DNA from: Nitrososphaerota archaeon | GTDB lineage: Archaea > Thermoproteota > Nitrososphaeria > Nitrososphaerales > Nitrosopumilaceae | Length of the DNA: 35,047 nt | Reading direction: 5' to 3' | NCBI GenBank assembly: GCA_029782475.1 | Contig: JARPSM010000078.1 | Coordinates: 1-35,047, forward strand | Shown: positions 304-14,658 of the stretch, piece by piece | How positions within the stretch are numbered: position 1 is the first letter of the stretch | Layout of the letters: each line of letters begins with the position of its first letter | Translations under genes and position numbers: made by a program | Notes under the pieces: model-generated | Told to the model about the DNA's origin: nothing | Database searches by the model: none | The model's input: the letters and a program-made list of their open reading frames with translations, nothing else

Positions 304-3300
304 TCATTTATCTGATGTTGTGATGAGCTCATTTCTATCCAGTTTTTCCTTGATTGTTTTCCAATTTTCAATATGGTATCTTGTAGTAGTCTCTTCTACA
401 GATTTGATGACATCTTTTAGTGTTTCATATGGATCCTGAATTGGTGTGATCTTTTCCTGTATGGATTTACTTGTATCTTTAACGTACTCTACAACATATA
501 ACCAATAATCTTTTCCGATACGACGTGCAGTTTCCCATTCATGACTTGTAAGTTTTGGAATTCCTGTGGTCTGAAATGATTTGACTTCAATGCATTTGTC
601 ATAAGATTCAATATCAAAACCTGTATCCCGTTCTGAAACATCTCTAATCATTGACTTTTGTTTGTCTGTATCTGCTAGATCCTGCTCATATCTCATTACA
701 ATTTCCATTCCTGCCAACTCTACATTTCTTCTTTCATTTGCATCAGTTTCGGGAATCACTATAGCAATTGCAATAGGTTCCGTACTTGTAACAGAGTTAA
801 AATCATGCTCTATCGTATCTTTTCGTTTTTCCATTTCTCGTTTCAAGCCGCCTATCTTGTTTTTCTCTCTTGTAATTAATTTTGAATAGTGTGGCGATGT
901 ATTTTTCTTTATCTCATATGAGTCGATATTTTCATTGCATTGATCGATTTTTACAATCGCATGTCTGTCAACAGCATCCTTTGTCTTCTTTTTGATCTTA
1001 TTTAATTTCTCAAAATTCTTTTCGTGGAAACCCTTCTTGATTTTCTCTAGCTCATTTTCAATCCTTTCTTTTGAATTAATGACAAATTGTGTATTTGGGC
1101 TTGTTTTACCTTCATCATATGACCACAAGCTTCTAGGTTCAATTTCAAAGATTTTACCATCCTCATTATGAAATATTGAAACGATCTTACAATCTCGTTC
1201 TCTGCCTTTTCCGTCAATGGTAGATATTTTGTAAACACAAATCAATCCACTTTTAGTAGGATGGGACAAGACGGTAACAGGTCTGGATTCAGATGTATGG
1301 TTGAGGATTTTTTGAATTTGCTTGTTCCCTAAAGCCAAATAATTATAGTTCTTGGATTGAGCTATTTTTCCATCAAATGTACCCTGTAAAATACCTCCTA
1401 TTTTTGCTGCCAGATGTGATGGTGGAATAATTTTTACCAATTGTAATTTTTTGTTTTGCTCCTCAAATTTTCCCTCATTTGATCCAGACCAAACTTCCAA
1501 AAATCGCTTCACTTCTCCCGAATCAACTGCATCTCTCTTAATTTTGGAGTAATCTTCCAGTACTGTATGATCTAATTTGTGTCCTTCTAAGAGCTGTTTT
1601 GTTTTGTTTAGGATGTCTGTTTTCTTTTCATCAATCTTGTCTAGTTCTATCATAATTCTTGTTTCCCAATGTTCTTTTGGTATGCGTAATAATTCTTCAT
1701 ACATTTTGGCAATAGTATCAGAACTGATTAATCTGCCAAGTATGTCAAAGATAGAATTCCCCATAGCTTCTTGTATATGTTTAATCTTATCAAATAATTT
1801 ATTTAGAATATAACCATCAATTGAATTTTCCTTATCAATTATGAGATTATAATAATGAACGGTTCTAGTTTGACCAATTCTGTGAATTCGTCCCATTCTC
1901 TGTTCTAATCTGTTTGGATTCCAAGGAATATCATAGTTAAATTCAACATTACAAAATTGCATGTCTATTCCTTCACCTGCTGCATCCGTACATACAAGTA
2001 TTTCAAATCCCTCATCCTTTGAAAATTCTATCAATTCTTCTTTTCTTTCTTGTATTTGCATGGTACCGTCAATCTTTCCCGTGGAATAATGTTTATCTAA
2101 TCTTGTAATTAGATAATCCAATGTATCTCGATATTCTGTAAATAAAAGAATTTTTGCCTTGGAATCTACAGTTTTTATTTTTTTAAATGATTCTAAAAGA
2201 AGCTCAAATTTTGAATCTTTATCTTTTAATTCTTTGATCTTTGTAATTATCATTTCAAGATCTTGTTTTTCTTTACTGGTGTCACCTTTACCTATGGTTA
2301 TACCTTCAGCTTCGTCTATGAGATCTTCATAGTCTGCATCATTGTCTTCCTCTGCATTATCTAGTTTATTTTGGGCATTTTGAATTGTATTATCTGAAAC
2401 TGTTCCCAGTTTGTTCATTCTTCGTGCCAGTGATATCTCTAATGCCTTTAGTGATGATGCAGCTCTCTTTTTTAGTATGATTGATAGAAAACGAACTGCG
2501 TTGGTTTCTTTTGGGTTTTCTGCTTGTTCGTATCTGTCTCTAATGTAATTGTCAATTGATTCATTAATCTCACGCTCTTGATTGGTTAATTCAATATCTA
2601 CAGTATTGCTATAACGTTCAGGAAATACTTGTTCTCCTTTCATATTTATGACATTTTCTTTGATATGTCTTTTCCAGAGATATGTAGAGGATGCAATATC
2701 GGGAACAAATGGATCCAGCAATTTCATTCGTGCCATAAAATCCTCATCTCTGCCATCGTGAGGTGTTGCAGTGAGAAATATCATATAATCTGATTTTTCA
2801 CTTAGAACTGTGCCTAATTGATATCTGTCAGTGTTTATCTTAAATTTATGAGCTTCATCTACTACTACTAAATCAATTTTATCTTTGATTAATTGATAGT
2901 TTCCCTCACGCTTGAGAAAATCCATTGATGTAATATAGTCATAATGATCTTTTGAGAAAGGATCACTGTCTTGTTTGATATACTCTGAATCAAGAATTGT
3001 TGTTTTTGTATCAAATCTGCCCTCTAACTCATCTTGCCATTTTAGGACAAGTGATTTGGGAACAACGTATAGCGTTTTATCTGCTAGTCCTCTGGCCTTT
3101 AACTCAGTTGCAATCAATGCTGCAATGATGGTCTTTCCCAATCCCACTTCGTCTGCAATCATTATGCGAGGATTTTCAAGACCCCAGCTTACCTCGTCTA
3201 TCTGATGTGGAAAAATTGTAATTTTTGTAGATGATGCCAGGACATATGGATTAAATTTATACTCATTTAGTAAACGATTTGCATCCACAGCAAGAATAAA

Positions 3301-3495
3301 GTCTATTACATCATCAAACTGTCCCTGAATAATTTTGTTTATTTGTTCATCTGACACATCTGTTAGATCATCAAGTGGAAACCACTGTTTTTTTGAATCA
3401 ATACTAATTTCAGCAAAATTATCTTTTACAGATAATACTATTCCTTGTTTATTGTCATATCCCTTGATTAGAACATTGTTTCCGGATTTAATCAT
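304..3495 (-). CDS. SNF2-family helicase with C-terminal DUF3883/PD-(D/E)XK-like domain (antiviral cassette)
   Basis: 1063-residue superfamily 2 helicase/translocase. Visible motifs are Walker A DEVGLGKT (residues 115-122), DEAH (213-216), LTATPHDG (241-248), and motifs V/VI around 504-543 (TDAAGEGIDMQ, then RMGRIHRIGQTR). This is the SNF2/HepA-type arrangement used for ATP-driven tracking on double-stranded DNA. The middle (about 380-430 and 560-950) is charged and partly coiled. Near the C-terminus, GFD (959-961), followed nine residues later by EVK (970-972), then SHEWETARRIGKDYWLYVV, matches the DUF3883 domain. D961, E970 and K972 are placed like a PD-(D/E)XK nuclease triad. I infer that this subunit is the DNA-translocating and possibly cleaving part of a restriction-modification-like system. 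Its ATG lies one base after the methylase stop, so the two are probably co-translated. No key helicase residue appears to be missing. Confidence 0.85.
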   Translation of the reverse strand: MIKSGNNVLIKGYDNKQGIVLSVKDNFAEISIDSKKQWFPLDDLTDVSDEQINKIIQGQFDDVIDFILAVDANRLLNEYKFNPYVLASSTKITIFPHQIDEVSWGLENPRIMIADEVGLGKTIIAALIATELKARGLADKTLYVVPKSLVLKWQDELEGRFDTKTTILDSEYIKQDSDPFSKDHYDYITSMDFLKREGNYQLIKDKIDLVVVDEAHKFKINTDRYQLGTVLSEKSDYMIFLTATPHDGRDEDFMARMKLLDPFVPDIASSTYLWKRHIKENVINMKGEQVFPERYSNTVDIELTNQEREINESIDNYIRDRYEQAENPKETNAVRFLSIILKKRAASSLKALEISLARRMNKLGTVSDNTIQNAQNKLDNAEEDNDADYEDLIDEAEGITIGKGDTSKEKQDLEMIITKIKELKDKDSKFELLLESFKKIKTVDSKAKILLFTEYRDTLDYLITRLDKHYSTGKIDGTMQIQERKEELIEFSKDEGFEILVCTDAAGEGIDMQFCNVEFNYDIPWNPNRLEQRMGRIHRIGQTRTVHYYNLIIDKENSIDGYILNKLFDKIKHIQEAMGNSIFDILGRLISSDTIAKMYEELLRIPKEHWETRIMIELDKIDEKKTDILNKTKQLLEGHKLDHTVLEDYSKIKRDAVDSGEVKRFLEVWSGSNEGKFEEQNKKLQLVKIIPPSHLAAKIGGILQGTFDGKIAQSKNYNYLALGNKQIQKILNHTSESRPVTVLSHPTKSGLICVYKISTIDGKGRERDCKIVSIFHNEDGKIFEIEPRSLWSYDEGKTSPNTQFVINSKERIENELEKIKKGFHEKNFEKLNKIKKKTKDAVDRHAIVKIDQCNENIDSYEIKKNTSPHYSKLITREKNKIGGLKREMEKRKDTIEHDFNSVTSTEPIAIAIVIPETDANERRNVELAGMEIVMRYEQDLADTDKQKSMIRDVSERDTGFDIESYDKCIEVKSFQTTGIPKLTSHEWETARRIGKDYWLYVVEYVKDTSKSIQEKITPIQDPYETLKDVIKSVEETTTRYHIENWKTIKEKLDRNELITTSDK

Positions 3496-3496
3496 T

Positions 3497-6058
<2,562 letters not shown>

Positions 6059-6080
6059 GATATTTAGAAAATGAATCTCT

Positions 6081-6090
6081 TTATAATTAT
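6081..6090 (-). promoter_or_regulatory. TATA-like box ahead of the methylase gene
   Basis: TTATAATTAT is centred about 27 bases before the GTG start at 6058. That is the archaeal TATA-to-start spacing, with transcription beginning at or next to the start codon. It would let the methylase and helicase be expressed apart from the ATPase gene. No experimental support. Confidence 0.45.
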
Positions 6091-6094
6091 AACA

Positions 6095-6448
6095 CTAGTT
6101 TTTGTAGAATGCTCTCCATGCCTTGAGGGAATTATTATTTGTAAGAAATTTGTTTGCCCAAAAGTGAATTTCCATGTTTCCAAGTGATTTCACCTGTTCA
6201 ATATACTGCATTGCCTCAAATTTATCCTTAGCTGCCTTGAGTACATGTAATCCTACAAATTTTCTAACAACAACATCATTCCATTCATCTGTCTCAAAGG
6301 AGAGATATTTTGTTGCAAGTTTTGCTCTCCAACCAGTAACAGAAGAAAAGTTAATTGTTTGCTCTCCAAACACATCATCTACTGTAATCTTGAACATAAC
6401 TGATTTTCCACTTTTGCTTACCGTTAAACAGTGATTAAAATTTCTCAA
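6095..6448 (-). CDS. 117-residue unknown subunit of the methylase/ATPase cassette
   Basis: Short protein encoded between the ATPase and the methylase. Its TTG start overlaps the ATPase stop (TTGA at 6448-6445), a coupling that supports this start over the internal ATG at residue 18. The first 40 residues look like beta strands (VMFKITVDDVFGEQTINFS). The rest is mostly helical, with tryptophans at spaced positions and the C-terminal stretch EIHFWANKF ... LKAWRAFYKN. There is no catalytic motif, signal peptide or membrane segment. In related bacterial cassettes the slot between the DUF499 and DUF1156 genes is often filled by a DUF3780 protein. The WA...W spacing at the C-terminus is loosely reminiscent, but this protein is shorter and I cannot show homology. 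Its role as an adaptor within the complex is inference from position only. Confidence 0.75.
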   Translation of the reverse strand: MRNFNHCLTVSKSGKSVMFKITVDDVFGEQTINFSSVTGWRAKLATKYLSFETDEWNDVVVRKFVGLHVLKAAKDKFEAMQYIEQVKSLGNMEIHFWANKFLTNNNSLKAWRAFYKN

Positions 6449-9135
6449 ACCTTTTTCACATTTATGTTGTTTTTATTAAGAATTTCTTCCATGTTTACTG
6501 TTGAATTTATAATCAGATATCCAGTCCCTGAGGGATTTTTTTCCTTAATCGAATTAAGAACACCCTTGAGCATCATATAATCATTCAATTTACTTTCAAT
6601 AAAGATCACTGTATCGCTGACATTGACCTTTGCGTTAAATTGTTTTTGTGAATTTTTCCAAATATCCTCTAAATTAACCAAGGCAAGTCTGAATACACAG
6701 TCAGAGATCTCTGTAAAACTCTCAAAATCAATTTGATATTTAAACGAGTTGACATTTTCAAATGTTTGTTGGGTTACTATAGATGTATCACTAGTATGTG
6801 ATTTGTCTGGCAGGTCTGGGATGTGAATTTTATCTTTGTTTACGATGTAACCATCCCAATTAAAACATTCTTTGTTAATTTCTGCAATATACTTTTCATC
6901 ACTCATCTTAATTTCATTGCAAAATCCAAATTTTCCTGCACCTGTACCATCTTTGATAGCATCTGCAATACTTTCTGAACGAAGAAGAAATGGTTGAGAT
7001 TTGTCTTCCTTGAAATTTTTGTATATTGAACTTATCTTTTGAGTGGTTTCTGGAATTTTAATGCCATCCACACTAATATCTTCTACTAGCTTTCCTTTTT
7101 TTATTAATAATTCTATCATTGATTCAGTTATTGTATTCTTTTTTGATTCCAAAAATCTAATTTCATCCAAACGAGGATGAACACCATTGGGATATCCAAT
7201 TTTACAGTAAACTGTCATGCAACTATTTTCTAACTGAGATTTTGCATTGGATTCTTTACTGCTTACTTGTTTTAGAAATGATTCATTGGCACAGACTGTT
7301 TCATCTTTTCTTGTTTTTTTAACTGCTGCTAGATATTTGGCCTGATCCTCAAGAATATATGCGGAATCTTGATCAACGTAAACAAAAACAATTGTATTTT
7401 TATTAGTTCTAATTCCTCCATTGCTAGTTCGATCAATGATTTGTGTCATGTAATCAATTGCAATAGCATCTGTAGATAATTTTTTAGCATAGTCTATTAT
7501 GAAAATTTTGAGATTCACAGTATCATCAAGTTCATGCTCATCCCAAACAACTGGAGAAAAACCCTTTGAGGGCAGGAGATTTTTTAATGAATTTCCAATT
7601 TCAACTCGTATCTCATTACTTGTCACATCCTTCTTATGTTCAAATATTATCGCATTAATATTTGGAGCCTGTACAAAATAAAATTCTTGATTATCCTTGT
7701 CTTGAATATACCAAAAATTCTCTGAAATATCTTCTTCTAAAGATTTGTCAACTAATGCAGGTTCTATTCCAGGCCTTCCTACGGACAGTTTGATTTGATT
7801 GCGTCTAATTCCAGATTTTTTATTTTGTCCATGCAACGAGAATACATAAATTGTTCTGGCTATGGATTCTACAATTTTTGTAGATTTGGATTCATCTAAT
7901 TTTTGGGCATGATTTATACAATCTGTATCAATTACTGTGCGCAAATTCATATCTATTTTTGCAGTTAATTCATCTGCAATCTCGTGATTGGTTAATTGTA
8001 TGTCTCCAAGACTAATGATCTTGCAATCTGGTTGTTCTGCAGTAATTTGCCTAATTACACGTCCCAACAAGCGAAGCATGCCTCTAGTTTGATTAAATTT
8101 TGAGATTGTTGATACACGATCGTATAATGTATCAATTAAAAATGGGTGAAAAGGATATGATCTTTTCAGTTTTTCCTCAAAATCAGGTTCTAATACAATT
8201 CCATTGTTTTGGTAATATTGAAAATATTCTTTGACTATTATATCTCGTTGAGTGTCATCAATTTTTTTGACCAGTCGTGCTCTTACTACATCATAAATCT
8301 GATTTCTTTCCACAGGAGTCACAATCTGAGTTTGTCTGGAAATTCCCTCTCTTAATTTGTCATCAATCTCATCTACCACATAATCCTGTATCGATTTTGA
8401 TCCTGAAATAATTTTTGATGTATACTTTTCATACAATGTTTGTTTATCAGTTAATGTCAGAATTAGACATGATTTATCTGATGCAGAAATTGCACTGATT
8501 AAATCCATCAAAAATACAATAGTCAAATCTGCCATTGTTCGATTTCCTTGTTTTTCTCCATCTGCCTTTAGGAGATAGTGTGGCAGTTCATCAATTAACA
8601 ACAGAGTTGGTTGTTCAAACAATGATTTTATTAATGAAATATCATTGATTGGTTTTTTCTCAACATCAAATTCCTTAAATTTGTCATACTGTCCTAACTG
8701 ATCTGCGATTTCTCCCCATAGAGTATTCTTGGAGATTTTTCTGCAATCAAGTGCAAGCATTTTAGCTTTAGGTATTTTCTCAATTCCATATTCTGAGGAC
8801 AAGTTGATTTTTTTAATGAATTCTAGACCCTTCTCTGGATTGTTTATGATATGATGCAATAATAGAATGGAGTGTGTTTTTCCTCCTCCAAAACCTGTAT
8901 TAATTACAGTTACAGGCTGTCCTCTTCCAGATTCTAATCGTATCAAAGAATCTTTTACTAGATATTTCATCTGATTTGTTGGAAATGTGTTCTCAAAGAA
9001 TAGTTCTGGATCTTGATATACAGATCCTGCTGTTTTGTCTAGAAACTCATGTAATTCAACTGCAAATTTTGCTCTGTTAAAATCAGATGATATTATTTCA
9101 TCACTAAAAGTACACGTTTCCCAGACATTTTTCAT
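6445..9135 (-). CDS. DUF499-type AAA+/P-loop ATPase of antiviral cassette
   Basis: 896-residue P-loop ATPase resembling COG1483/DUF499. Walker A is GFGGGKTHS (81-89). Walker B is LLLIDELPHYLL (178-189), with D182 and E183 as the Mg/water-polarising pair. A sensor-like segment, CLILTLTDKQTLYEKY, follows. The C-terminal third (about 560-896) is mixed alpha/beta with no motif I recognise. The family is known from restriction-like defence loci, where it travels with a DUF1156 methylase and a helicase. A direct biochemical role is not settled, so a motor or loader role is inference. It is the first gene of the minus-strand operon. A TATA-like box lies 28 bases before its ATG and the next gene overlaps its stop. 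The protein is complete, with no frame breaks. Confidence 0.85.
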   Translation of the reverse strand: MKNVWETCTFSDEIISSDFNRAKFAVELHEFLDKTAGSVYQDPELFFENTFPTNQMKYLVKDSLIRLESGRGQPVTVINTGFGGGKTHSILLLHHIINNPEKGLEFIKKINLSSEYGIEKIPKAKMLALDCRKISKNTLWGEIADQLGQYDKFKEFDVEKKPINDISLIKSLFEQPTLLLIDELPHYLLKADGEKQGNRTMADLTIVFLMDLISAISASDKSCLILTLTDKQTLYEKYTSKIISGSKSIQDYVVDEIDDKLREGISRQTQIVTPVERNQIYDVVRARLVKKIDDTQRDIIVKEYFQYYQNNGIVLEPDFEEKLKRSYPFHPFLIDTLYDRVSTISKFNQTRGMLRLLGRVIRQITAEQPDCKIISLGDIQLTNHEIADELTAKIDMNLRTVIDTDCINHAQKLDESKSTKIVESIARTIYVFSLHGQNKKSGIRRNQIKLSVGRPGIEPALVDKSLEEDISENFWYIQDKDNQEFYFVQAPNINAIIFEHKKDVTSNEIRVEIGNSLKNLLPSKGFSPVVWDEHELDDTVNLKIFIIDYAKKLSTDAIAIDYMTQIIDRTSNGGIRTNKNTIVFVYVDQDSAYILEDQAKYLAAVKKTRKDETVCANESFLKQVSSKESNAKSQLENSCMTVYCKIGYPNGVHPRLDEIRFLESKKNTITESMIELLIKKGKLVEDISVDGIKIPETTQKISSIYKNFKEDKSQPFLLRSESIADAIKDGTGAGKFGFCNEIKMSDEKYIAEINKECFNWDGYIVNKDKIHIPDLPDKSHTSDTSIVTQQTFENVNSFKYQIDFESFTEISDCVFRLALVNLEDIWKNSQKQFNAKVNVSDTVIFIESKLNDYMMLKGVLNSIKEKNPSGTGYLIINSTVNMEEILNKNNINVKKV

Positions 9136-9158
9136 TGTTAGATGATTACCTACCTAGT

Positions 9159-9166
9159 CTTAAAAT
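9159..9166 (-). promoter_or_regulatory. TATA-like box for the antiviral operon
   Basis: ATTTTAAG on the minus strand is centred about 28 bases before the ATG at 9135, consistent with a leaderless operon transcript. A second AT-rich candidate (TTATTATAACG, near 9176-9186) would give a leader of about 20 bases. The choice between them is open. Confidence 0.4.
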
Positions 9167-9442
9167 GAATTACTTCGTTATAATAACATATTTTATCAGA
9201 TATTAACTAAAAACGATATTCTAGCTATTTCAAACATTTTAGAGAATAAACAGTGCTCTAAATAAGAATCAAATAAAAAAATTGTCAATAAATTGGAATC
9301 TTATATCAATTGATAGAGTAATTTTATTATCAAATCACCTCAAAAAATAATTGAGGGATTATCGAATAGTCAAAATATACCAATTTATCTCAACGTTTTA
9401 AGCTTAGTTGAATTTGATTATTGTACAAGCTATTGTTTAATG

Positions 9443-9507
9443 CGTTGGATAAGTCTACAATTACGCATTGGTATAACGATTCAGCTAGTTTAAACCCACA
9501 TCCAACG
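9443..9507. repeat. 8-bp inverted repeat CGTTGGAT / ATCCAACG
   Basis: CGTTGGAT at 9443-9450 and its exact reverse complement ATCCAACG at 9500-9507 bracket a 49-base segment that holds one ATTACGCATT element. The left arm overlaps another element of that family (TAATGCGTT). Confidence 0.5.
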
Positions 9508-9598
9508 AGTTATAATGCGTTAGTAGAGTGTTGAGGGATATTTTTCAATTCTGTCAAGCTTGATGGATTCAACGTTATATAACGCATAAATTCACTTC

Positions 9599-9636
9599 AT
9601 AATCCGAAAAGGGATTAAGAAAGTTATACGGATTAT
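9599..9636. repeat. 8-bp inverted repeat ATAATCCG / CGGATTAT
   Basis: ATAATCCG at 9599-9606 pairs exactly with CGGATTAT at 9629-9636. A nested GGATTA at 9612-9617 could pair with TAATCC at 9600-9605 instead, so two alternative stems are possible. Confidence 0.5.
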
Positions 9637-9743
9637 ACAATTATTCCAAGTCAAAAAATTTCCAACCTTTTTTAATCAAGTATGAATCAACCCTAGTTAA
9701 TTGAATCAAATTATGCCAGATGAACCAGTGAATTATAGTATAT

Positions 9744-9771
9744 GATGAATAGCTTTGGATGAATAGCTTTG
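9744..9771. repeat. Tandem 14-mer, two copies
   Basis: GATGAATAGCTTTG is present twice head to tail (9744-9757 and 9758-9771), followed by a partial GAT. It looks like a recent slippage duplication in noncoding DNA. Confidence 0.8.
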
Positions 9772-9826
9772 GATAACCTTTTTTGTTACGCACAAAAAAA
9801 GCTAGAATTACGCATAACTTTTGATT

Positions 9827-9850
9827 ATATCGTTATGCCATGCGTAACAT
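9827..9850. repeat. 24-base direct repeat, copy 1
   Basis: The segment begins ATATCGTTATGC and ends CATGCGTAACAT. An identical 24-base copy lies at 9893-9916, 66 bases away. Within it GTTATGC and GCGTAAC form a 7-bp inverted repeat around CAT (one G-T wobble). The sequence between copies also shares an AAAAAAAGAGCTAG-like stretch with the region just before copy 1 (AAAAAAAGCTAG), so the repeat unit may once have been longer. Confidence 0.85.
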
Positions 9851-9892
9851 AGAGCTACCATTCAAAAAAAGAGCTAGATCTATTTGTAGCAA

Positions 9893-9916
9893 ATATCGTT
9901 ATGCCATGCGTAACAT
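9893..9916. repeat. 24-base direct repeat, copy 2
   Basis: Exact second copy of the 9827-9850 repeat, with the same internal inverted repeat. The period of 66 bases is not a CRISPR-like array, as there are only two copies and no cas genes nearby. Confidence 0.85.
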
Positions 9917-9920
9917 TATT

Positions 9921-9942
9921 CTTAATCCTAAATAGGATTAAG
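9921..9942. repeat. Perfect 10-bp inverted repeat with 2-base centre
   Basis: CTTAATCCTA at 9921-9930 is followed by AA and then TAGGATTAAG, its exact reverse complement. It lies 4 bases after the second 24-base repeat. It could be an operator, a cruciform, or a hairpin. It is not followed by a T-run, so a terminator is unlikely. Confidence 0.8.
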
Positions 9943-10175
9943 AGGATTATTAGATTATAACAGTCTCAAAAATAAGGTCTAACCTTTTTTTGAATCATCA
10001 TTTTGTAACAATTAGCAGCAAATAGCATGATAACTGTACGTTATCAACCGACATTTAACGCCTGATTTGATCAATTGCAAGTTAACAGAACCGTTTTTGT
10101 CTTAGCCTTCAATGGTTCTACAAAATATCCTAGATATAGTAGATATGGCCAAAAAATAAAAATTGTCCACAAAAA

Positions 10176-10183
10176 TTTAAAAG
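10176..10183 (+). promoter_or_regulatory. TATA-like box for the zinc-finger membrane protein gene
   Basis: TTTAAAAG is centred about 26 bases before the ATG at 10206. This fits a leaderless transcript. There is no purine-rich ribosome-binding site before the ATG, in agreement. Confidence 0.45.
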
Positions 10184-10205
10184 CAACAATACGAACAATT
10201 TTCTC

Positions 10206-10763
10206 ATGGGACTAAGAGGCCGTATAATAGCCTTGATTTGTGTGACTTTATTCCTAAATATGCCATTGTATAGTTCAGTTCCTTATGGTGAAGGATTGGT
10301 TGAATACGCGGATCGGGCTTATTCAACTAGTTGGTATAATGCAACTACCCATATACCTGAATGTGTGTTGTCAGGTAACTCTTGCTTTGAAGGATTTGCA
10401 GACGGTATGGCTGTATTCGTTATCTTCTCGGCCAGTTTCTGGATTCCAAGCATTATAATTATTTTCATAATCCGTGGAGAGATAAAATATCGTATTTGTA
10501 AGATATGTAACAAGAAAATGAAAGGTAGTAGTAGTATTATATCCCATATGAAACGTGATCATCCTTTATGTTGTCCCATTTGTATTACTCAATTCAACGA
10601 TTCTATTTCACGTACTTGTCATGATCTAATTCAACATTCTGGCACAAAAAATCAATTAAACTGCCCAATATGTGGACATCTGTCATGGTCTGGAGGTGGT
10701 GGACTTGCATCAGCTCACCTTTATAATCATATTGTTACTAGACATCCAAAAATTTTTGGGTAA
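10206..10763 (+). CDS. Membrane-anchored protein with three C2H2-like zinc fingers
   Basis: 185 residues. The N-terminus (6-22) is a hydrophobic signal or anchor. A second hydrophobic segment at 67-89 (MAVFVIFSASFWIPSIIIIF) is followed by RGEIKYR, so the C-terminal half is probably cytoplasmic by the positive-inside rule. That half carries three Zn-binding units: C98/C101/H114/H119, C123/C126/H139/H144 and C153/C156/H175/H180. The first two have ordinary C2H2 finger spacing; the third has a longer glycine-rich loop. The loop between the two membrane segments has two cysteines (C53, C60) that could form a disulfide. The gene sits next to the repeat-rich region and reads away from it. I do not know a named family with this layout. 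A membrane-tethered DNA- or RNA-binding sensor is a reasonable inference. Confidence 0.75.
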   Translation: MGLRGRIIALICVTLFLNMPLYSSVPYGEGLVEYADRAYSTSWYNATTHIPECVLSGNSCFEGFADGMAVFVIFSASFWIPSIIIIFIIRGEIKYRICKICNKKMKGSSSIISHMKRDHPLCCPICITQFNDSISRTCHDLIQHSGTKNQLNCPICGHLSWSGGGGLASAHLYNHIVTRHPKIFG

Positions 10764-10859
10764 TATAGTAAGCACAAGTTTGTGAGTTATTTTCAAGATA
10801 ATCTCATCAGTCATAATTGCCTAGGTAAAATTTTTCAATCTCTAGTTTTTTGATGATTT

Positions 10860-10964
10860 TTAATTCGTGAACTTTATCTTTTGGCTATAAATTATGATAA
10901 TTGCTCCAATTACTGTAATAACCACTAGTGCAATAATCCACAAAGTAATAAAATTAATTTCCAC
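10860..10964 (-). CDS. Small single-pass membrane peptide (34 residues)
   Basis: A GTG-started frame encodes VEINFITLWIIALVV, continues through about 23 uninterrupted hydrophobic residues, and ends YSQKIKFTN. An acidic/polar start, one membrane helix and a basic tail make a sensible small membrane protein, and the rest of the gap is noncoding. There is no ATG upstream before an in-frame stop. It lies just after the recombinase gene on the same strand (51 bases). It could be a chance frame, so confidence is moderate to low. Confidence 0.4.
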   Translation of the reverse strand: MEINFITLWIIALVVITVIGAIIIIYSQKIKFTN

Positions 10965-11014
10965 AATATACGGGAAAATTTGAAATGTTAAACATTAAAC
11001 ACAGTTTAGATTAA

Positions 11015-11971
11015 TCATTTGAAATTAAGGTATAATGAGGATTCAACCTTATCATATTGTCGCCTTAATGATTCAGGGGAATAATCAGTATAGTGTTTTG
11101 ATATAATTTGTTGATTAATTCGGCCACAAAAAGCGTTAATGTATTTGTCCTGAATTTTTACATCCGTACATTTTTCAGTAAATGCAGTTCTTAATAGATG
11201 AGGATTAATCTTAACCCCTGATTCTAATGAGATTCGTTTAAACTCTTCCTGGATTAACTTGTAGGAAATCTCAAAGAGTATAGAGTCATTATCAAGATTA
11301 TATCTGTCAATATGTTCGGTTAAAAATCTAGCCGTTTGTTCAGTAAAGAAACTAATCCATGATTCCTTAATGTTGGATTCGTGAATTTCAGTGGCATTAA
11401 TCATATTTGTTTCAAAGTCAATATTAGAGACTTTAAGGGCTAAAATTTCACTTATTCTCAATCCTGAATTATACATTAAGAGAAATATTAACCACGTTGG
11501 ATAATTTAGAGAAACGCAAAAATTCGTTAATTCCTGAACATTAGGAATTTTCTTAATTTTTGCCTTTTCTTTTTTGAATTCAAACTCATTAATCCAATTT
11601 CCTAAATTTAGATAATCTCTAAGATATTTCCTTAATGCTTTTACCTGATTTGACTTCCAAGAATTCTTGTCATTTGAATCTAAATAATTTTTGACAGTAT
11701 CTGGATCTATGATCCCTTTTGAGAATGTTAAGAATCCACGAATAACGGATTTATGATTATTAATTGTGGTTTGAATTAATTTCTTTTGAATCGCGTATTT
11801 TTCATACTCATTAATGCTATTTTCAATATCTGAAATTTCAAGAAATTTATCAGGTAAAATGTTGAGTGATTTTTTGATTAAATTGATATCATCCTGCAAA
11901 TTATCTATTTTTTGATTTTGATTTTTCACTGTATCTCTAATTGAATAGAGTATATTTTCTATATTAGACAT
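11015..11971 (-). CDS. Tyrosine recombinase/integrase (318 residues)
   Basis: Phage-integrase-type site-specific recombinase. The catalytic domain shows the first Arg in NSGLRISEILAL (about 169-180), the HLLR box (about 258-261) and the nucleophilic tyrosine in KHYTDYSPESLRRQY near 297-300. The third-position His/Trp box is poorly conserved (FCGRINQQIISKHY). A SAM-like N-terminal core-binding domain precedes it (about 55-135). The first 40 residues form a predicted coiled coil (NQKIDNLQDDINLIKK). The ATG overlaps the end of the upstream HNH gene by 8 bases, so the two are one transcript. It acts on DNA by strand exchange, integrating or excising an element or inverting a segment. Its target is unknown. 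Confidence 0.85.
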   Translation of the reverse strand: MSNIENILYSIRDTVKNQNQKIDNLQDDINLIKKSLNILPDKFLEISDIENSINEYEKYAIQKKLIQTTINNHKSVIRGFLTFSKGIIDPDTVKNYLDSNDKNSWKSNQVKALRKYLRDYLNLGNWINEFEFKKEKAKIKKIPNVQELTNFCVSLNYPTWLIFLLMYNSGLRISEILALKVSNIDFETNMINATEIHESNIKESWISFFTEQTARFLTEHIDRYNLDNDSILFEISYKLIQEEFKRISLESGVKINPHLLRTAFTEKCTDVKIQDKYINAFCGRINQQIISKHYTDYSPESLRRQYDKVESSLYLNFK

Positions 11972-12587
11972 TTTGAATTAATGGATTCTTTTTTATGATG
12001 TATTTTTTACCCTCGATTTTAGTTATTTCATAACTTCCTCTTGAGCTTGCTAACATAGCTATATGTTTTCTAATGGTAGTTTGTGATCCATGTCCTACTT
12101 CCTCTTGGCATAATAGAGCAATTGAATCCAAAGTATCCTGATATTGTAATTTGTCAATTTTTGATAATTCAGATTCTAAATAATTTTTTGTTATGTGAAA
12201 AAATCTAGTATTTGATTCTATTTCTGGATGTTGAAAATCTTCATTATATCTCTCGATTTTTTGAGGTTTGATTTTCTCTCTCTCACTCACTAAAACCCCA
12301 GTTCGTTCATTTTCTTTTAATTGGTCTTTTGCCATTATCTGCCAGTCAGAAAAATTCTTTTTTCGTTGGTTGCATATTTTATGACATAATACTATATTTT
12401 CAATTCTGTTATCGTATTCTTTATTATTTAGATGGTCATATTCCATGAAATAAGGATTTTTGTGTCCATTATGCTCATGTACATTCTCTCTAAATGCTTC
12501 TTTACAGTAAAAACATAATTCACCATGCACTCTTTTTAATATGGGTATCCATTTTCTTTTTTGCTTTGTAGTTATTCTATTAGTCAT
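11964..12587 (-). CDS. HNH endonuclease with C-terminal helical/winged-helix-like domain
   Basis: 207 residues. The N-terminal third is an HNH nuclease domain: C25/C28, the DH of MEYDHLNN (D51, H52), the Asn-rich segment EYDNRIENIVLC, and C68/C72 as the second Zn pair. The middle is polar. The C-terminal 60 residues (DSIALLCQEEVGHGSQTTIRKHIAML, then EITKIEGKKYIIKK) read like a winged helix with a beta hairpin. The gene overlaps the downstream tyrosine recombinase by 8 bases and follows a small Cys-containing gene by 42 bases. It probably nicks or cuts DNA. Coupling to a recombinase suggests a mobile-element function, but a role in defence or regulation is possible. Confidence 0.8.
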   Translation of the reverse strand: MTNRITTKQKRKWIPILKRVHGELCFYCKEAFRENVHEHNGHKNPYFMEYDHLNNKEYDNRIENIVLCHKICNQRKKNFSDWQIMAKDQLKENERTGVLVSEREKIKPQKIERYNEDFQHPEIESNTRFFHITKNYLESELSKIDKLQYQDTLDSIALLCQEEVGHGSQTTIRKHIAMLASSRGSYEITKIEGKKYIIKKNPLIQNV

Positions 12588-12629
12588 GGTATTTTTTTCC
12601 TATGAGAGAGAAAATTTTATTATCAAAAT

Positions 12630-12773
12630 TTAACATGATCTAACCTCTTGATTTTTTCTAGTTATTTCGTATAAACAAAACTGGAGTTCTTTGTCAGTAT
12701 GGATTTTTAGCAATTTATCACAATTACCACAAATTTTATCTCTATTTTTCTGGATTATTTTATTTTGAATCAT
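12630..12773 (-). CDS. Small Cys-containing protein (47 residues) upstream of the HNH gene
   Basis: An ATG-started frame encodes a basic protein with CGNC at residues 15-18 and further cysteines at 33 and 47, flanked by lysine-rich helices. This is enough for one zinc knuckle. It lies 42 bases ahead of the HNH nuclease on the same strand and fills an otherwise empty gap, which supports it being real. The first residues, MIQNKIIQKNRDK, are typical of small DNA- or RNA-binding proteins. No family is recognised. Confidence 0.5.
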   Translation of the reverse strand: MIQNKIIQKNRDKICGNCDKLLKIHTDKELQFCLYEITRKNQEVRSC

Positions 12774-12838
12774 TTTGTTTCTTCACTTATAATACTCAAA
12801 GCTACCCTTTTTACCCAACTCTACCATTTTCTAACTAA

Positions 12839-13537
12839 ATGAAAGATGAATTAGCCTTGTTGGATAAGAAAATAGTCGACTTGATTTTATCACGTTATAA
12901 GCTCCTTAGACAAAATGGTAGACAAAATATCCAAGAGACTAAAAGAATATCCAAGTCCAAGCGTGACGTTATATCTAAAATGAAAAGTGTATTGTCTGCA
13001 TATGATAACATCGGGGAAATTATGAAAGTAGGAATGATTACACCAGAAAAAATCTCTGAGCCTCGATACAATGTTAAAGATAATCTTGAATATATTAGAG
13101 AAATACATTCTAAACTAGATAAAAAAATTATAATTAATACGTTAGAGTTTAATTTAATTCAAAGAAAAGATGATCTAGAATATTTTAAGAACATACAAAG
13201 AGAAATAACATTTGGAGTTTTCGATGAAAAGTCTTTGAATAAATTATTGGATTCCATCTTTATGTTCCATCCAAAAAAATCAATTAATGTCATAGGGGAT
13301 CAAGACATAGTTAACAACGAAAATGAACTAACATCTGAATACTATCAAGAAATACATAAAGCAAAATATCACGAATTGGCTTATTTGCTGGTCAAACGTG
13401 GCATGGATGAAATTATTAAAAATCTTGATTCTAAAGAAGATAAATTAATCATTGAAAATTTTTTGTATACTGTGAACATAGTAAAAAGATTGAGCTATAG
13501 AACAGACATTAAGACATCGCCACAAACAGAAGATTAA
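12839..13537 (+). CDS. Unknown helical protein (232 residues) converging on the second integrase
   Basis: A lysine- and isoleucine-rich, almost wholly helical protein. The first 50 residues (KDELALLDKKIVDLILSRY, then RISKSKRDVISKMKSVL) look like a coiled coil with a basic face. The C-terminal part, HELAYLLVKRGMDEIIKNL, is again amphipathic. No catalytic motif, signal or membrane segment is seen. The stop codon overlaps the stop of the facing tyrosine recombinase by 3 bases, so the two genes end back to back. The start is the first ATG. No TATA box stands out clearly. It could be an accessory factor of the integrated element. I do not recognise the family. Confidence 0.7.
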   Translation: MKDELALLDKKIVDLILSRYKLLRQNGRQNIQETKRISKSKRDVISKMKSVLSAYDNIGEIMKVGMITPEKISEPRYNVKDNLEYIREIHSKLDKKIIINTLEFNLIQRKDDLEYFKNIQREITFGVFDEKSLNKLLDSIFMFHPKKSINVIGDQDIVNNENELTSEYYQEIHKAKYHELAYLLVKRGMDEIIKNLDSKEDKLIIENFLYTVNIVKRLSYRTDIKTSPQTED

Positions 13538-14658
13538 TTTTTACATTTAATTTCTCTAAGATTTAATTCTTCAATAATATCTAGGACATCAGAATATCTT
13601 TTTTCTAATTTTCCATAATCTTTTTGTTGTCTATCATTTTGATATTTCAAAGCCTCTATTATTTCATCTTGTTTTTTGTCTTTTTCATCATCATAAATTA
13701 ATAAATCTGATTCATATTTCATATAGTAAGATAATTTTTCATCATCAGTTAATTTATCATACATGGCTAAATCTTTAGAATTTCCTTGTCCTGCAAAATA
13801 TTTAGCTAAAATTGGGTCATGACGATTAAATCTAGTAATAAAATATGCTCTAAGACTATGTGAGGATATCATGCTTTTACCAGTTTCAGATTTTTTATAT
13901 AGATTGCATTTTTTCAAGTATCTAACTATAGCTTGCTGATAAGGCTCTCCAATATTGATGGCATTAGGTTTTCCGGTGGAAAATATCAAATCTTCATCAT
14001 CTTTAGTTTTCAGCAATTCTATGATCTTGGATGTTATTTCTCTACTTAGAAAAATAGTCCTTGCTTTTTTCCTCTTTGTTATGCTAGATGGTATTTTTAC
14101 CATAATTCTTTTTTTAGATGTATCAAAATGTTTTTTTCGTAACTGCAACATCTCCCCCCGTCTCATGCCTCCTGATAACTGAGCCAATATTCTCAATCGA
14201 TTAAGATGACTAGCATGACTTAGAATTTGCTTAATTTCATATTTTGTAAGTGCATATCCTTCCTTAGTTTCAGTAATTGGAAAATCTAGATTATCCTTAA
14301 CATCCTCAGAATATAGTTCAATTTTCTGATATTTTAGATATTTTTTAACACATGAAAAATACATACGAATCATATTAGTTGGGTGTTTCCGTTCAACGTT
14401 CCAATTTATCCAATCTTGTAGAGAATCAAATAATTGATCTTGTGTGGCTATTCTATATTCTTCAATCATTTGTTTTTCTGAAACTTTGTATTTTTCAAGG
14501 CAAAATCTATCAAAATTCTTTATTGCATTATTGATATTTTTTTGATAGTTGAGAGATTTGGATTTTATTTTTTGATCAAAACTAACTCTGTTCCTAGTTG
14601 TGGATAAAATTGTCGACATCATAGAATTATCGACTAATTTATTACTTAAACCTATCAT
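13534..14658 (-). CDS. Tyrosine recombinase/integrase (374 residues)
   Basis: Integrase family protein with an intact catalytic domain: SGGMRRGEMLQL with the first Arg (about 163-174), a beta-hairpin lysine near ITKRKKARTIFLS, the HSLRAYFITRF box (about 268-278), GQGNSKDLAMYDKL holding the tyrosine nucleophile (near 299), and a long charged coiled-coil tail (about 325-374). The position after HxxR that is usually His/Trp reads GQG. Residues 30-130 form the core-binding domain. The ATG (14658) lies inside the spacer of a 7-bp inverted repeat and 43 bases from the divergent Lrp-like gene, so the gene sits at a likely chromosome/element junction. It differs enough from the 318-residue recombinase nearby that the two are not a recent duplicate. 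Confidence 0.87.
   Translation of the reverse strand: MIGLSNKLVDNSMMSTILSTTRNRVSFDQKIKSKSLNYQKNINNAIKNFDRFCLEKYKVSEKQMIEEYRIATQDQLFDSLQDWINWNVERKHPTNMIRMYFSCVKKYLKYQKIELYSEDVKDNLDFPITETKEGYALTKYEIKQILSHASHLNRLRILAQLSGGMRRGEMLQLRKKHFDTSKKRIMVKIPSSITKRKKARTIFLSREITSKIIELLKTKDDEDLIFSTGKPNAINIGEPYQQAIVRYLKKCNLYKKSETGKSMISSHSLRAYFITRFNRHDPILAKYFAGQGNSKDLAMYDKLTDDEKLSYYMKYESDLLIYDDEKDKKQDEIIEALKYQNDRQQKDYGKLEKRYSDVLDIIEELNLREIKCKN

Follow-up and report, generated by a model that had tools for sequence, protein, structure and literature searches.

A small gene in a Nitrososphaerota archaeon lies between an antiviral operon and an integrase module, and its predicted product joins two membrane segments to three C2H2-like zinc fingers. 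What is such a protein doing at this place? The gene was found in a 35,047-nucleotide stretch of contig JARPSM010000078.1 (assembly GCA_029782475.1), hereafter the window. A first-pass annotation had called the build odd for an archaeon and had proposed that the protein senses or holds DNA at the membrane, senses infection, or regulates the adjoining repeat array. Its statements on position were correct: the gene is divergent from the antiviral operon and reads away from the repeats. The gene and its surroundings are as follows.

10206..10763, + strand: ORF of 185 aa with an ATG start, predicted to encode TM, outer loop, TM and three C2H2 fingers
10176..10181, + strand: TATA-like TTTAAA, a putative leaderless promoter 25-30 nt before the ATG
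6445..9135, - strand: DUF499/HmaC-like ATPase, which opens the divergent defence operon (context)
9385..9993, + strand: repeat block (context, outside the gene), conserved in genome G087, where two stretches 3' of the integrase align with it at 68% and 59%
9994..10996, no strand: segment holding the zinc-finger gene, 1,003 bp vs 197 bp in G087 between the same conserved blocks
11015..11971, - strand: Int2, XerA-like tyrosine recombinase (context)

Membrane segments were assigned by Kyte-Doolittle hydropathy only, using 19-residue windows and a threshold of 1.6. The features of the N-terminal half are listed below.

10224..10280, + strand: hydrophobic segment 1, residues 7-25 (TM or signal peptide), from hydropathy
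10281..10409, + strand: predicted outer loop, residues 26-68, with the topology taken from charge
10410..10472, + strand: hydrophobic segment 2, about residues 69-89, from hydropathy

Peaks were obtained at residues 7-25 (1.97) and 71-89 (2.54). By hydropathy only, the protein has two TM segments, where a membrane-tethered regulator (TTR) has at least one. Segment 1 is the weaker of the two and could be a signal peptide. The predicted outer loop is acidic and contains two cysteines (C53 and C60) and an N-A-T sequon at N45; between the segments, residues 24-66 include six acidic residues and one basic residue. Positive charge is found in the N-terminal MGLRGR before segment 1 and in RGEIKYRI after segment 2. 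Given these positive flanks and the acidic stretch between the segments, both ends of the protein are probably inside, and the charge distribution suggests that the fingers are cytoplasmic. The fingers were located as follows.

10497..10562, + strand: finger 1, residues 98-119, motif with C98, C101, H114 and H119
10572..10637, + strand: finger 2, residues 123-144, motif with C123, C126, H139 and H144
10662..10745, + strand: finger 3, residues 153-180, motif with C153, C156, H175 and H180 (alternative, H171)

These are three non-overlapping C-x2-C...H-x4-H motifs within residues 98-180, and their paired Cys/His ligands at finger spacing make the protein a C2H2 protein at the level of motifs. 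Among 20,000 composition-preserving shuffles of residues 91-185, three motifs appeared in 0, two in 5, and one in 1,193; a chance origin of the three motifs was thus rejected. With the hydropathy peaks and the complete sets of ligands, this confirmed the proposed architecture of two membrane segments followed by three C2H2-like fingers. The best Pfam match was zf-Di19 (PF05605; E 6.6e-6, residues 122-180), which at 26.7 bits is 0.8 bits short of the gathering cut-off of 27.5, and the protein was not assigned to that family. In Pfam, PADLOC, PHROGs, and NCBIfam, the protein had no match above a curated threshold: PADLOC left it unmatched at E 0.1, NCBIfam returned nothing, and PHROGs gave weak matches only, none better than E 0.012. 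The PDB sequence matches of the fingers were tandem C2H2 proteins, the best being ZBTB24 (E 1.1e-4 with the fingers alone), and the closest solved sequences were mostly DNA-binding C2H2 proteins. AlphaFold2, run on the single sequence, modelled the whole protein at a mean pLDDT of 42.0 and the fingers at 40.7; both values are low, and neither model had a recognisable finger fold. The models neither support nor exclude a C2H2 fold, and both were too poor for fold searches.

Residues 91-185 are net positive (12 K/R vs 4 D/E), which would allow DNA binding at the membrane. The gap between fingers 1 and 2, from H119 to C123, is three residues. The classical linker, which lets neighbouring fingers track the major groove, is longer than this, and C2H2 fingers often bind proteins or RNA. 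The short gap therefore argues against DNA tracking and makes a protein- or RNA-binding adaptor a serious rival to a DNA-binding regulator. Finger 3 is irregular, with 18 residues between C156 and H175.

The GC contents of the ORF by codon position are 0.40/0.44/0.25. Its frame has the best codon-usage score among the six frames, yet that score is near zero and lower than those of other genes scored alongside. TTTAAA at 25-30 nt before the ATG fits the expectation for a leaderless archaeal transcript. Among 12 starts inspected, TATA-like boxes at about this distance were found only for the zinc-finger, DUF499, and rps11-like genes (3/12).

Neither the 149 near relatives nor the 397 further genomes sampled from the phylum yielded a full-length homologue. 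The protein search of near relatives at E 0.01 gave matches in 5 of 150 genomes, the window's own included; the four foreign matches were short, three representing one soluble two-finger protein and the fourth locus L005. At E 0.05, 36 of 398 genomes in the phylum matched (own included), and no foreign alignment in this search spanned both membrane segments and all three fingers. The N-terminal half alone matched 7 of 150 genomes including its own (best foreign E 0.0216), and the frames read at these matches contained no fingers. Viral contigs (searched with the whole protein and with the fingers), GTDB contigs, phages, and plasmids yielded no homologue; the scans of viral and GTDB contigs were pattern-based and reach close relatives only. 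An Rfam scan of 9130-11020 returned a single match, far below the gathering score.

The claim of an odd build stood in part. C2H2 fingers as such are widespread: PF00096 matched 145 of 150 genomes of the lineage at E 0.05, and 68 of 150 above the curated cut-off. Two of the 30 loci read from this search join fingers to membrane segments, namely L076, in which two fingers follow five segments, and L097, which has a finger, a segment, and DUF929 in that order. Another two membrane-plus-C2H2 loci, L005 and L013, were among 30 read from the protein searches; in L005 a single finger accompanies a hydrophobic stretch, and L016 is similar but below the hydropathy threshold. In the Di19 search (29 loci read), two passed the threshold only marginally (1.61 and 1.65) and were left uncounted. 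Membrane-plus-C2H2 proteins are thus uncommon but not unique, and two segments with three fingers were encountered only in the window. In L005 (a 3,105-bp locus, minus strand) and at L016:1441-1590(+), very small ORFs place a single C2H2 finger immediately after a hydrophobic stretch; the two genomes belong to a different family within the order. Small soluble C2H2-like ORFs also occur near Int2 homologues, at L124:6101-6367(+) and at L128:4013-4240(-) and 4237-4458(-); they have a long Cys-His spacing as in finger 3, and their Pfam matches are below cut-offs or absent.

The operon at 304-9135(-) matches the HmaA, HmaB, and HmaC models of PADLOC, in agreement with its earlier description as antiviral. 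DUF499-methylase-helicase sets are treated as BREX-related systems in PMC12839542. The ATPase was present at E 1e-10 in 8 of 150 genomes including its own. The operon flank was read in three relatives, G018, G025, and G132, the G063 and G090 regions (L068 and L071) being left out, and ORF neighbours of compared loci were identified by eye. The zinc-finger gene was absent from all three flanks. In G018 and G025, a winged-helix-like gene is divergent from the DUF499 ATPase (39% mutual identity).

L065:4408-4782, - strand: winged-helix-like gene, candidate operon regulator, Pfam matches below cut-offs
L066:286-606, + strand: winged-helix-like gene, candidate operon regulator, Pfam matches below cut-offs

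The window had no match to these two genes, and G132 had no convincing divergent gene in the 1.15 kb to the contig end. The G025 operon flank carries a homologue of the 232-aa protein encoded at window 12839-13537, and on another G025 contig an Int1 homologue lies directly beside an apparent helicase gene end (by eye); a unit of Hma-type operon plus integrase therefore seems to exist without the zinc-finger gene. A role as a Hma/DUF499 defence component was rejected, since PADLOC gave no match and the gene was missing beside the operon in the relatives read. Within the operon itself, a 117-aa ORF (window 6095-6448, -) lies between the ATPase and the methylase as an extra gene. It has a distant counterpart at the same place in the G132 operon (L067:7212-7820, -; 20% over 101 aa, E about 5e-6) and, judging from its sequence and place, is possibly a fourth gene of the Hma-type operon.

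On the other side of the gene is a module (window 11015-14658; L069:9297-13587; L066:901-1584) made up of a pair of tyrosine recombinases, an HNH-like gene, and a 232-aa protein of unknown family. The cargo of this module varies by genome, being Hma-type in the window and Eco57I-type in G087. The G087 module resembles that of the window in Int1 (54%), the 232-aa protein (45%), and Int2 (72%); the gene lying between them looks HNH-like by eye but had neither a Pfam match nor a BLAST match to that of the window, and the module adjoins different cargo, an Eco57I-type restriction-modification gene. On the 3' side of Int2 in G087, one piece aligns collinearly with window 9385-9673 at 68% and a second with 9786-9993 at 59%; similarity to G087 resumes at window 10997, in the Int2 flank. 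The zinc-finger gene fills the excess of about 0.8 kb in the window over this otherwise collinear module. The extra DNA could be a gain in the window or, equally, a loss in G087; no convincing direct repeats marked the ends of the segment. As G087 keeps the block and the integrase without the zinc-finger gene, the repeats travel with the integrase and not with that gene. No gene for a protein with membrane segments plus three fingers was found in the eight other Int2 loci, G087 included, so the gene does not belong to the conserved part of the Int1/Int2 element. To the left, the island extends past the end of the contig.

The block contains two copies of TAATCC-N6-GGATTA (9600-9617 and 9923-9940), the only exact copies in the 1.92-Mb genome; the reversed control pattern occurred 0 times. 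Dyads with at most one mismatch were found 3' of Int2-type genes at the following positions.

L069:14648
L124:11641
L125:2472
L126:7873
L128:287
L129:9423
L130:8746

Of the 9 loci examined, 8 have a dyad 3' of the Int2 homologue, and in several of them the dyad arms reach about 11 bp. With one mismatch allowed, the nine Int2 loci contain 13 dyads, 9 of which lie in the 2.6 kb that follow Int2 on its 3' side, a region making up 12% of the sequence; this 2.6-kb limit was set after the dyad positions were known, and four of the nine loci come from one genome (G040: L124-L127). The dyads look like core sites of a tyrosine recombinase and are candidate dif-like sites of the Int2 family. The motif TTACGCAT occurs five times in the window against 0.47 expected, and four of the copies are inside the block. 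TTACGCAT/TTACGCA motifs surround the dyads at window 9461-9913, are also present in the G087 block, and are candidate arm-type sites of the recombinase. The TTACGCAT array was rejected as the target of the fingers because it is kept in G087 without the zinc-finger gene.

The earlier interpretation was thus partly supported, being borne out at the level of architecture only. Its proposed links to defence or infection sensing and to the repeat array or TTACGCAT sites have no support beyond position: the three relatives read have no counterpart beside the operon, and G087, which lacks the gene, has kept the array 3' of the same integrase. The homologue search that it had called for gave no full-length homologue, so its refuting case of scattered homologues did not apply. 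Since relatives keep the operon, integrase, and repeats without the gene, its position beside them is not functional evidence.

The reading that we favour, tentatively and as somewhat short of probable, is that this is a lineage-specific accessory gene of the mobile island, encoding a membrane-tethered nucleic-acid-binding regulator and standing outside the Hma-type operon. It is consistent with three motifs beyond chance, the charge pattern, the positive fingers, the tandem-C2H2 matches in the PDB, the absence of full-length homologues from the collections searched, and the placement of the gene in DNA missing from G087; the gap between fingers 1 and 2, too short for a classical linker, the weakly typical codon usage, and the equal chance of a loss in G087 count against it. 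The same short linker, together with the irregular third finger and its 18 residues between C156 and H175, would suit a membrane-anchored adaptor or scaffold whose fingers bind a protein or RNA partner at the cytoplasmic face, and L134, from the same order, joins a finger, a TM segment, and a DUF929 domain and is no obvious regulator. However, the finger region is net positive and the nearest solved sequences are mostly DNA-binding C2H2 proteins, and we regard the adaptor as possible but rather unlikely. That the ORF is a chance or decaying one is very unlikely: the gene is an orphan with a near-zero codon score, but it retains three intact motifs that were matched in 0 of 20,000 shuffles, a third codon position low in GC, and a TATA-like box at the correct spacing from the ATG.

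The neighbours of the gene suggest further roles. In place of the winged-helix regulator of its relatives, the zinc-finger protein might be the local regulator of the Hma-type operon, since two of three relatives (G018 and G025) have divergent winged-helix-like genes that are unmatched in the window, where the zinc-finger gene is the nearest divergent gene. We consider this improbable, because the two starts are 1,070 bp apart with integrase-linked repeats in between, the TATA-like box of the operon is more than 200 bp from the repeat block, the zinc-finger gene is missing from other operons, and the relatives' genes match winged-helix models in Pfam only at scores under the cut-offs. A place in the defence system, as infection sensor or membrane effector, would suit the membrane location and the adjoining operon; the lack of a PADLOC match at E 0.1, the lack of co-occurrence with the operon in the relatives read, and a promoter candidate of its own on the other strand make it one of the least credible proposals. 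Binding of the TTACGCAT/dyad array, by which the protein would regulate the array or tether it to the membrane, draws on the adjoining position of the gene and on the enrichment of TTACGCAT, mostly in the block. But G087 retains the block, the TTACGCA motifs, and one dyad without the gene, and the dyads track Int2 homologues (8 of 9 loci) while the gene is in none of the eight loci outside the window, so that we hold this to be highly improbable. Hardly credible, too, is a tether made of eukaryote-like fingers in an archaeal membrane: a membrane-anchored three-finger C2H2 protein, picked up by a mobile defence island, that would bind its integrase-site block, keep the element at the membrane, and couple excision or segregation of the element to a membrane signal.

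For the favoured accessory regulator, a working scheme can be outlined. The gene would be accessory and lie towards the integrase in a mobile island; the most economical reading makes the island a cryptic integrated element, a class described in PMC6563490. The encoded protein would be held in the membrane by one or two segments, with a short acidic loop outside and its three C2H2 fingers in the cytoplasm. A stimulus at the membrane or the loop would alter engagement of a promoter by the fingers, as in transmembrane regulators like ArnR. We infer the topology, zinc binding, DNA binding, and regulation of the protein. According to PMC10269533, 367 of 404 archaeal species have proteins that combine membrane segments with a DNA-binding domain; HTH is the commonest domain in the membrane-tethered regulators described there, and the word 'zinc' is absent from the main text. 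If the present protein binds DNA in the membrane, C2H2 fingers would join the DNA-binding parts of these mostly HTH-based regulators. The reach of the finding is small, as it concerns a single orphan gene.

Among known or comparable systems, the ORFs L133/L076, L134/L097, L005, and L013, which come from the same order or phylum as the zinc-finger protein, likewise combine one or more hydrophobic segments with one or more C2H2 fingers, but differ in the number and order of these parts; in L133, the one compared, the alignment was restricted to the fingers. In literature searches for archaeal membrane C2H2 proteins, no title or abstract opening described such a protein. AFV1p06, a C2H2-like finger protein of an archaeal virus that binds zinc and DNA (PMC3541406), and the SSV-type proteins likewise represent archaeal C2H2 fingers in mobile elements. 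They are short and mostly have one finger (PMC3541406), whereas the window protein has three and is without a homologue in viral contigs. Fingers 2 and 3 resemble zf-Di19 and classical C2H2 fingers in their Cys/His spacing and in the match to Di19, which remains below the Pfam cut-off, and the membrane segments lie outside the matched stretch. In layout the protein resembles TTRs such as ArnR and ArnR1 of Sulfolobus acidocaldarius, which combine a TM anchor and a cytoplasmic part, in our protein a candidate DNA-binding one, in one polypeptide. ArnR is a membrane regulator able to bind promoters and also has two TM segments (PMC6396743); its HTH is N-terminal, followed by HAMP/sensor regions and C-terminal TM segments, whereas the zinc-finger protein has N-terminal TM segments and, as its candidate binding part, C2H2 fingers.
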